From: Geobacter sp. AOG2
GTDB lineage: Bacteria > Desulfobacterota > Desulfuromonadia > Geobacterales > Pseudopelobacteraceae
Direction of reading: 5' to 3'
Assembly: GCF_019972295.1 (NCBI RefSeq)
Contig: NZ_BLJA01000001.1
Location: forward strand, 1,024,049-1,088,048
DNA: 64,000 nucleotides
Within the stretch, counting starts at the first letter, position 1. Every line of letters starts with the position of its first letter. The translations under genes were made by a program, and so were the position numbers. This document shows positions 52,932 to 59,308 of this stretch, piece after piece. The notes beneath the pieces were generated by a model. That model was not told the origin of the DNA, made no database searches, and worked only from the letters and a program-made list of their open reading frames with translations.

Positions 52932-53139
52932 GGTCGGTCCCGGAATCAAAAAAGCCCCGCTGAACAAGTCTTTGTCCTTTTGGGGCACATAGTAATATGT
53001 TGATATGTAAAATAATTGCTTTGCGACAGTCGAAAGCCCTGTGCCGACATTAGCAAAAAAAATAGCAATTCGTCTATAGGTATTTTCACAGGACTAATTT
53101 GATGTGACGTCGAAACCCATGCACTATTGGAGTGGATAT

Positions 53140-53388
53140 TTACTTGAAACTATGGGGCCGGAGTGAGCCAATATTTATTGCGGCCTCAAGCTTGTCAACC
53201 GCTTGGCATAATTTATCGAGATGTTTCTCCCAATCGGCGGGACATGCCAACTCTTTTTTCCCATCAGAGACACCTCTGATTCCAATCATTGGAACAGAGA
53301 ACTTTTGACAGGCTCTCCAGGCTGAAAATGTTTCCATGTCAACCATATCAGCTTTAATATTATAGTACGGCTCTCCAGAAATAATGCT
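53140..53388 (-). pseudogene. 3' remnant of an MTA/SAH nucleosidase-type phosphorylase
   Basis: The frame encodes the last 80 or so residues of a purine nucleosidase/phosphorylase of the MTAN superfamily. KADMVDMETFSAWRAC is the conserved substrate-binding METxxx region, and GIRGVSDG follows. Everything N-terminal (about 170 residues) is missing: the frame begins right after the stop of the neighbouring selenoprotein-like gene, in the same frame. An ATG at 53346 could express a 68-aa piece, but it would lack the catalytic domain. Confidence 0.75.
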
Positions 53389-53691
53389 TTATTTGCATCC
53401 TGCAAATCCCAGAAATATAAACTTAGTGCCGATTCCGCCAGTCACTACATCGATGCGTGCACCGGCAGTTCCTTTGATTGCGCGATGAATGTATACTGAT
53501 ATTCCATTAAGGTTTATCGTTTCGTATTCTTCGTTTTCAAATGTTTCCGGTGTTCCCAATCGCACGGATGGGATGTCTCTCTCTTGAGCTCCGCCTCAAC
53601 TGTAACAAATCTGTTTATTCAGACTGACAGTTACTTTGTTACCTTTTTCAGCAATGATTTTCTGCGCTTTCAAGGTTACCTTCATATTCAT
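53389..53691 (-). CDS. Candidate small selenoprotein with CxxU-GG motif (HesB/CC-Se-like)
   Basis: A 100-codon frame interrupted only by UGA at 53596-53598 (codon 32). Upstream: ATG with AAGGGAG at a good distance, then MNMKVTLKAQ...VTVSLNKQICYS. Downstream: GGAQERDIPSVRLGTP...GISVYIHRAIKG...FLGFAGCK and TAA. Both sides read as one beta-rich protein. With UGA as selenocysteine the motif is C-Y-S-U-G-G, a redox-type CxxU followed by GG as in small HesB-like or CC/Se-motif selenoproteins. A hairpin with a bulged U and G in its apical loop lies about 22 nt downstream, as a bacterial SECIS should. The alternative is a pseudogene with a nonsense codon, since both neighbours are remnants. The intact frame on both sides argues against that. 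Confidence 0.68.
53554..53573 (-). promoter_or_regulatory. SECIS-like hairpin of the candidate selenoprotein
   Basis: In the mRNA UCCCAUC pairs with GAUUGGGA, a 7-bp stem with a single bulged U on the 3' side and the loop CGUGC. The loop begins 30 nt after the UGA and has G at its second position, consistent with the bacterial SECIS pattern. Confidence 0.55.
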
Positions 53692-53751
53692 CTCATCTCC
53701 CTTCTGACTGAAACCGTGATGTGAACTCGACTATATTGGGGGCCGCCAAAA

Positions 53752-53970
53752 TCAGGCTACTGTTTTTTCAAATTGTTCAAGGGCTTCCAGAACAATGCTT
53801 CCATAGGCCTGGGAGGGTCCACCACTCATCAAGATAGCGACACTGATGGTTTCTAAAATCTTCTGGCGCGATGCACCAGCTTTTAAAGCATCATGAATAT
53901 GAAAGGTTATACAGCCTTCACAACGGGAGCTGATGGCAATTCCCAAAATGATGAGTTTTTTATCGCAGAA
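53752..53970 (-). pseudogene. 5'-truncated carboxymuconolactone decarboxylase (AhpD-like) remnant
   Basis: The frame encodes DKKLIILGIAISSRCEGC...HIHDALKAGASRQKILETIS, the conserved core and C-terminus of the CMD/AhpD family with its CxxC-like CEGC and the following histidine. About 40 N-terminal residues are missing. A TAG at 53971-53973 closes the frame upstream and only a TTG (53946) is available as a start. Intact family members are about 105-115 aa. Probably non-functional. Confidence 0.7.
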
Positions 53971-53997
53971 CTATATGCTATGTAGCTCCGTAAACGC

Positions 53998-54048
53998 AAC
54001 ATTGCTGCCTCCACCGAGCGTTAGCAGTCGATGATAAGCAGCAATGTT
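53998..54048. repeat. 11-bp inverted repeat inside the insert
   Basis: AACATTGCTGC and GCAGCAATGTT, separated by 29 nt, near the rplS-side edge of the insert. No T-run follows on either strand. It was compared with integron attC boxes and does not fit them. Confidence 0.5.
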
Positions 54049-54110
54049 TGTTAAAAATAAAAAAGTTACTAGTTTTTGAACTCCGCTGAGCGGGGCTTTT
54101 TCGGTTCTTC

Positions 54111-58405: not shown

Positions 58406-58981
58406 TTAAAGCCGTATTACCTGTGGTGCCGAAAGCAGGCTTTCGACGGTGGTAAGCATGTTTGTGGTGGTACCGGCCTTCAGTTTGTCCTTGAGTTTGA
58501 AGAAGTCCAGGCAGAGACCGCAAGAGAGGATTTCCACCCCCATGCCGCCCAGCTTTTCCAATGCCTCGAGCACATCCGACCCTTCTACGGTAAGAAACAC
58601 CCCGGTGTTGAGGAACAGCATGCGCGTCGGCAGATCGCTCGTCTCCAGCAGGGTATGGATAAAATTTTTCATCAGCAGGCTTCCCAGCTCTTCAGGGCCA
58701 TCTCCCAGCCGGTTGGATGTGATCAGTACAACCCGCTCGCCGGTGGCCGTGCCTGCTGCGGGTTGCGGAGTTCGTTCCGCGGTGGAAATGGTCAAGGCCC
58801 ATCCGTTGCCGTCACGCTCTTCGCAGACCTGGCAGCCGCGGTTGCGGGCAAAGCGGGTAACGTTTTCCCGTGGCGCGCCGTCATCCAGCAAAACCCGAAA
58901 TTCGGCCTGTTCTTCCAGCGCCTTTTTTACCGTAATTACCGGGGCCGGACAGGCCAGGTTCCTGCAGTCGATGGTAGTCAT
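58406..58981 (-). CDS. yedF: Selenium metabolism protein YedF (TusA-like plus DsrE-like)
   Basis: A 191-aa two-domain protein. The N-terminal TusA-like domain (residues 1-70) begins TTIDCRNLACPAPVITVKKAL with the CPxP active site at C11. The C-terminal DsrE-like domain (about 82-190) contains FLNTGVFLTVEGSDVLEALEKLG and a second cysteine pair SCGLC. The YedF family is known to co-occur with selenium utilisation. It is followed upstream by the DUF3343 gene, its common partner, 21 bp away, and a candidate selenoprotein gene lies about 5 kb off. Confidence 0.88.
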   Translation of the reverse strand: MTTIDCRNLACPAPVITVKKALEEQAEFRVLLDDGAPRENVTRFARNRGCQVCEERDGNGWALTISTAERTPQPAAGTATGERVVLITSNRLGDGPEELGSLLMKNFIHTLLETSDLPTRMLFLNTGVFLTVEGSDVLEALEKLGGMGVEILSCGLCLDFFKLKDKLKAGTTTNMLTTVESLLSAPQVIRL

Positions 58982-59002
58982 GCTTGTGTGCCTCTTTTCT
59001 TT

Positions 59003-59308
59003 CTATATGCTGTGTGAGCCATCAGGCCCGATGCCCCAGATCGTAACGAACAGCCCGTCCCGATATACACTGACAAAGGCCGGCAGCAATCCATCCCGTT
59101 CCAATGCCCCCATGACCTGCTCGCGAACATCCTCATTGAAGCGCAGGGCCAGCCCGCAGTCGGTCTGGAGTTGCCGGGGGGCGGGGATAAGCAGCACCGG
59201 CAGCCCGAGGGCCTTGAGGAGGCTTTCGGCCTTCATCACGCGGTGGCCGGAATTGAATACCGCCAGCAAATGTCCTTCCTGTACCATAAGGCGTTTCTCC
59301 ATCGTCAT
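59003..59308 (-). CDS. DUF3343 protein, putative Se/S carrier
   Basis: A 101-aa protein of the DUF3343 family (putative Se/S carrier-like). The pattern GHLLAVFNSGHRVMKAESLLKALGL, LLIPAPRQLQTDCGLALRF is typical, and the conserved cysteine (C51) lies in the DCGLAL segment. These proteins usually neighbour YedF and selenium genes, as here. Their biochemical role is unproven. The start could also be the ATG two codons further in. Confidence 0.82.
   Translation of the reverse strand: MTMEKRLMVQEGHLLAVFNSGHRVMKAESLLKALGLPVLLIPAPRQLQTDCGLALRFNEDVREQVMGALERDGLLPAFVSVYRDGLFVTIWGIGPDGSHSI

Follow-up and report, generated by a model that had tools for sequence, protein, structure and literature searches.

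The CC/Se motif family has already been published among the predicted selenoprotein families: Table 1 of PMC13188914 lists it under NF041239 (Moor_selen_rel), with a CxxU motif, as a hypothetical protein that was predicted for Moorella thermoacetica. A 2022 review (PMC9312934) also includes a hypothetical Moorella thermoacetica protein, again a prediction and there without a family name, and we take the two to be the same. The relevant passages of both papers give no function for the family. The selenocysteine (Sec) insertion signal of bacteria is likewise modelled in PMC13188914, where the Fig. 2 legend describes a SECIS hairpin with a loop of 3–9 nt, a stem of 4–16 bp and a G in the first two loop positions; the model further gives 16–37 nt from UGA to loop and an energy at or below -7.5 kcal/mol.

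The locus described here is, with a probability of roughly 93%, a Sec-encoding gene of this family. It occupies positions 53389–53691, minus strand, of the window, by which we mean the whole 64,000-nt stretch of Geobacter sp. AOG2 DNA that was analysed. Read from 53691 to 53389, the frame comprises 31 codons, one UGA (53598–53596), 68 codons and a UAA stop (M...CYS-UGA-GG...K-UAA), and would give a protein of 100 residues in which the UGA, at codon 32, is read as Sec within the motif CYSUGG (C29-Y-S-U32). From the sequence, a Shine-Dalgarno-like AAGGGAG (minus strand, 53697–53703) lies 5 nt before the ATG. The preliminary description had already noted the 31 and 68 codons around a single UGA, the ribosome binding site, the UAA stop and the Cys-X-X-UGA-Gly-Gly (CxxU) context; we recovered all of these and supply the strand, which was absent from that account. 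The plus-strand reading of the same interval (frame 1) is unrelated and was discarded. The read-through protein matched one NCBIfam model, NF041239 "CC/Se motif family (seleno)protein", over residues 1–83, scoring 45.9 bits where the cut-off is 40 and showing that the earlier assignment to the CC/Se-motif proteins was right; in the six-frame genome search the gene scored 40.5 bits. A Pfam scan of the read-through protein gave no family over its cut-off, and a sequence search of solved structures with the protein gave no match. Rfam at gathering thresholds found nothing at the locus and one tRNA elsewhere, and promoter and terminator scans did no better than shuffles.

Seven close homologues, 58–69% identical to the window protein, were collected, and all of them have UGA at codon 32, so that this codon is TGA in 8/8 aligned genes (the window gene and its seven relatives). 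A sequencing error is thus implausible. A class-level search, with a profile built from the window gene together with its first relative as query, matched 6 of 277 genomes, own genome included, and each match contained exactly one TGA. Two more relatives came from named bacterial genomes, namely MAGs titled Selenomonadales bacterium and Bacillota bacterium; that scan used two N-terminal peptides as patterns, so that others may be missed, and reduced 247 pattern matches to these two. The 94 pattern matches in viral contigs included no relative. Downstream of the UGA, nonsynonymous divergence was lower than synonymous divergence in 28/28 pairs, as would be expected if this part is translated in the same frame, and dN/dS between the window gene and the seven relatives was 0.10–0.30, with synonymous sites near saturation. 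It is this conservation, and not the energy of the hairpin, that lifts the observation above chance. When ORFs around the seven relatives were judged by eye, gene order was similar in three class relatives, and no neighbour gene common to all seven was found.

Members of the wider family were sought using a profile built on the eight closest genes, and the sample therefore leans towards these. From the 54 sequences collected (53 rows plus the Cys form L005), 39 entered the family alignment and 15 were left out as partial or similar; where two loci represented the same gene, one was dropped (L011 = L006, L012 = L010), and three Cys-type matches that fell below the cut-off and were judged by eye (L007, L008, L009) are excluded from the counts. 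All 39 aligned members matched NF041239 at E up to 0.01. It had been proposed beforehand to see whether homologues have Cys or Sec at codon 32, and the outcome is positive: the position is UGA in 34 members and a Cys codon in the other 5. Among evenly drawn genomes from the phylum to which the Selenomonadales MAG belongs, 37/398 were matched, with 44 matches in total (41 with one TGA, 3 with none), while 2/395 were matched in the window's own phylum, these being the own genome and a second one, G417. The family copy of G417 (L028:1480-1809) has two adjacent UGA codons (NGUUV) and would read Sec-Sec.

The composition of the motif bears on what such a protein might do. Cys forms carry a vicinal CC, and Sec forms mostly CxxU or UC and the like. 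Another Cys or Sec lies within 4 residues of the Sec in 45 of 48 Sec-bearing sequences, the partner being found at -3 in 23, at +1 in 11, at +3 in 8, at +2 in 2 and at -2 in 1. We tentatively suggest, at somewhat less than even odds, that the window protein would act as a small redox protein with a selenol, C29 and Sec32 joining reversibly in a selenenylsulfide. As a general mechanism for the family such a pair is a poor fit to the 3/48 UGA-containing sequences without any Cys or Sec in that 4-residue range. As a separate observation, the MAG G655 holds four family members (L017, L079, L080, L081), three with UGA and one of the CC form; among them, L079 has no Cys within 4 residues of its Sec, yet has a C-terminal CC. 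The genome G125 encodes two family types (L007, L010), one with UGA and one with Cys in the sequence SCCVPY.

A distant relationship to the A-type carriers emerged from profile comparison. In these carriers, the conserved cysteine of the GCSG motif is a cluster ligand. The E. coli K-12 proteins IscA, SufA and ErpA were used as yardstick, because a PF01521 search of 15 relatives found no local carriers. Aligned by hhalign with these three, the 39-row family profile gave a probability of 83.9 (E 7.7e-6, 82 columns) and placed the Sec on the conserved GCSG cysteine, compared with 0.1 and 0.3 for single unrelated proteins and 0.2 for a three-row RnhB alignment as controls. The probability was 25.9 (E 7e-4) against IscA alone, and 6.8 when an eight-row profile of the closest sequences was compared with the three carriers, which means that the carrier link rests on profile depth. 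PF01521 (HesB/IscA family) was matched by 4/39 members at E up to 0.01. A search of solved structures with the family profile returned six ribosomal-protein sequences at E about 1, which we take as chance, and an AlphaFold model was discarded at a pLDDT of 42, so that the fold assignment depends on the profile comparison. The suggestion in the preliminary description that the protein is HesB-like thus survives in a distant sense, in that the family profile aligns with IscA/SufA/ErpA, but not as direct membership, since none of the HesB/IscA models (NCBIfam, Pfam PF01521) matched the window protein.

The same alignment raises the alternative that the selenoprotein is an A-type carrier of metal, Fe-S clusters or soft metals, using Sec as a ligand, rather than a thiol-redox protein. 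The position of the Sec on the GCSG cysteine and the few family members recognised by PF01521 point in this direction, while the lack of the C-terminal CGCG in the family alignment and the failure of every HesB/IscA model to match the window protein point away from it, and on balance we regard a carrier function as possible but rather unlikely. We read the protein as a HesB-like fold that would have lost its cluster site and kept one selenol, for which a redox use together with Cys29 seems most likely.

The selenoprotein gene lies in the gap between rnhB and rplS (52989–54110), a probable insertion with 42% GC against 56% for the window; in five congeners this gap is shorter by about 1.1 kb. 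The distance from the end of rplS to the rnhB active-site motif is 1284 nt in the window as opposed to 155–164 nt in the five congeners. Directly downstream of the selenoprotein gene there is a C-terminal fragment of an MTA/SAH nucleosidase gene (minus strand, 53140–53388; TIGR01705 positions 132–209 of 212), and upstream there is a fragment of an AhpD/CMD-family gene with its N-terminal part missing (minus strand, 53752–53946; PF02627 positions 31–82 of 84). The selenoprotein gene is the sole family member found in its own genome and was not found in the five congeners searched. Horizontal acquisition of a fragment in which the selenoprotein gene stayed intact is the simplest account.

A SECIS-like hairpin is predicted on the minus strand at 53555–53573, on the basis of fold and synonymous constraint, with the apical loop CGUGC at 53562–53566, 29 nt after the UGA. 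The hairpin (CCCAUC-CGUGC-GAU-U-GGG) has a bulged U and a G in the loop, both as described previously, with the G at loop position 2, and starts 23–24 nt after the UGA instead of the 22 nt first reported. RNAalifold places it at alignment columns 36–54 with the same apical loop. The structural points of the bacterial SECIS model, against which a check had been proposed, are all within range: the loop has 5 nt, the stem six pairs plus the bulged U, the G is in the loop and the spacing is 29 nt. Codons 42–44 (TCC GTG CGA) are identical in 8/8 genes. Among same-residue pairs, synonymous differences amounted to 50/207 in codons 38–46 compared with 699/1507 elsewhere, and when 92 segments of nine codons were ranked, those starting at codons 36–41 made up six of the eight lowest in synonymous change; the signal is not unique, as segments that begin at codons 55 and 49 are nearly as low (0.24 and 0.25). 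Compensatory change was absent from the pairs of the hairpin and the covariation term is nil (0.16), meaning that the support for the hairpin is conservation and not covariation; the single compensatory pair belongs to another stem, predicted around the UGA. Some relatives show an alternative fold that begins closer to the UGA, which was rejected because its 5' arm is changed in the window.

With respect to energy, the window hairpin is weaker than those of its relatives. In isolation it reaches -4.0 kcal/mol versus -9.1 to -11 for the relatives, because a W45L change (TGG to TTG, codon 45), found in the window gene alone among the eight aligned genes, breaks a stem pair. A 6-pair stem with the bulged U can still form, the minimum-energy fold of the window 19-mer differing slightly near the loop (-4.0 vs -3.9 kcal/mol). 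The hairpins of the relatives are within the limit of -7.5 kcal/mol set in PMC13188914, and the window falls on either side of it, at -4.0 kcal/mol for the isolated hairpin and -10.1 kcal/mol for a longer stretch, the passage leaving unstated the stretch to which the limit applies. The folding energy of the window hairpin does not exceed chance (z 0.23), and the six folded relatives do so mildly (z -1.1 to -1.8). The weakened hairpin may make Sec decoding in this genome inefficient.

These features could also be read as decay: the family would be a true selenoprotein family, but this copy an incipient pseudogene on a foreign fragment, its SECIS stem decaying and little full-length protein being made. 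Such a reading draws on the truncated AhpD and nucleosidase pieces at its flanks, on the absence of the insertion from five congeners and on W45L, which destabilises the hairpin (-4 kcal/mol as against about -9). Set against it are a frame, ribosome binding site, UGA, loop and stop that are all intact, the 6-pair stem that can still form, and the low dN/dS after the UGA, though much of that ratio reflects shared history and the synonymous sites are close to saturation. We consider decay unlikely but a real chance, and favour an intact gene that probably arrived by transfer.

We looked for the machinery that Sec decoding would use, as had been proposed for selA, selB, selC and selD, and all four are present in the genome. 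It contains selA, two selB genes, two tRNA-Sec genes (79.5 and 77 bits) and a selD with one TGA, all over curated cut-offs. A tRNA-Sec over cut-off (67.5–75.6 bits) was also found in 7/7 genomes with a close homologue. Five congeners have tRNA-Sec yet lack the gene, two of these genomes being 83% and 88% complete. In G018, the genome of the Cys form L005, the best tRNA-Sec match had 46.9 bits against a cut-off of 47 and none was over it, and second-rank matches in other genomes fall in the same range (46.7–47.9 bits); this pattern agrees with a replacement of Sec by Cys where the genome does not use Sec, although G018 is in 230 contigs. That the UGA is an ordinary stop, with the match beyond it due to a frame open by chance, to a sequencing error or to a pseudogene, is very improbable, for although in-frame stops are common and the hairpin energy alone is insignificant, the same UGA stands at the same codon in 8/8 genes, nonsynonymous change is the lower in 28/28 pairs and the Sec machinery is present in the genome.

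In this genome selB and tRNA-Sec are each present twice. The two selB genes have 483 identical of 639 aligned positions, and together with the two non-identical tRNA-Sec genes they form loci L001–L004 (G000:C1 467277-469166, 514103, 514567 and 2649465), one pair being adjacent. The second tRNA-Sec gene adjoins an ORF (L003:1686-2558) that, we presume, resembles an IS3-type transposase. Three tRNA-Sec genes over cut-off were counted in each of the congeners G115 and G118, and two in G117. Multiple bacterial tRNA-Sec genes have been reported, for example in Desulfitobacterium (PMC5330540). Within the window itself, at 58406–59308, a selenium-metabolism protein YedF (TIGR03527, 212.9 bits) is encoded beside a Se/S-carrier-like protein (PF11823).

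In summary, we propose that SelB and Sec-tRNA-Sec would read the UGA at codon 32, a decoding that we infer from its conservation, and that the hairpin with its apical loop starting 29 nt downstream would direct this event. The predicted product is a 100-residue CC/Se motif protein, distantly related to HesB/IscA and with Sec at the GCSG Cys position, from a gene that was probably acquired horizontally. The locus offers one more conservation-backed case for a selenoprotein family whose genes standard gene calling splits at the UGA, and it suggests that a single Sec gene, together with its SECIS, has moved between bacteria that are distantly related. The locus also provides a natural SECIS variant, with a lost stem pair and a bulged U, and a testable idea on the fold, namely Sec on the GCSG position of IscA.

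Compared with known systems, the window protein shares with the NF041239 family its small size, Sec or Cys at the motif and a profile match over residues 1–83, and the CxxU motif is the one given for the family in PMC13188914. Within the family it belongs to a CYSUGGAQ-type subgroup, which has extra residues around the motif relative to most other members and straddles the 40-bit cut-off (33.1 to 45.4 bits for the six other scanned members). The HesB-like selenoproteins TIGR01911 and IscA_HesB_Se (NF038090) are also small Sec proteins and probably of the same fold class; the window protein, however, matches neither at E up to 1, NF038090 is matched by 2/39 family members at E up to 0.01, and the motif is CxxUGG as opposed to the UxGP listed for TIGR01911 in PMC13188914. 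The A-type carriers have three conserved cysteines, that of GCSG and two in the C-terminal CGCG, whereas the window protein retains only the first, as Sec, and has no C-terminal CxC, in line with the absence of CGCG from the family alignment. It is conceivable, though we would not put it at even odds, that the CC/Se family as a whole forms a hitherto unrecognised selenium branch within the A-type carrier fold. Its one remaining cluster-ligand Cys would then have become Sec and its C-terminal CxC would have disappeared, turning an Fe-S carrier into a protein that works in selenol redox chemistry or with soft metals. In this view the family, widespread across one large phylum, moves between distant bacteria as a single gene with its SECIS. 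The window gene is a further member of a catalogued selenoprotein family, to which the link to IscA and the history of the insertion are added here.
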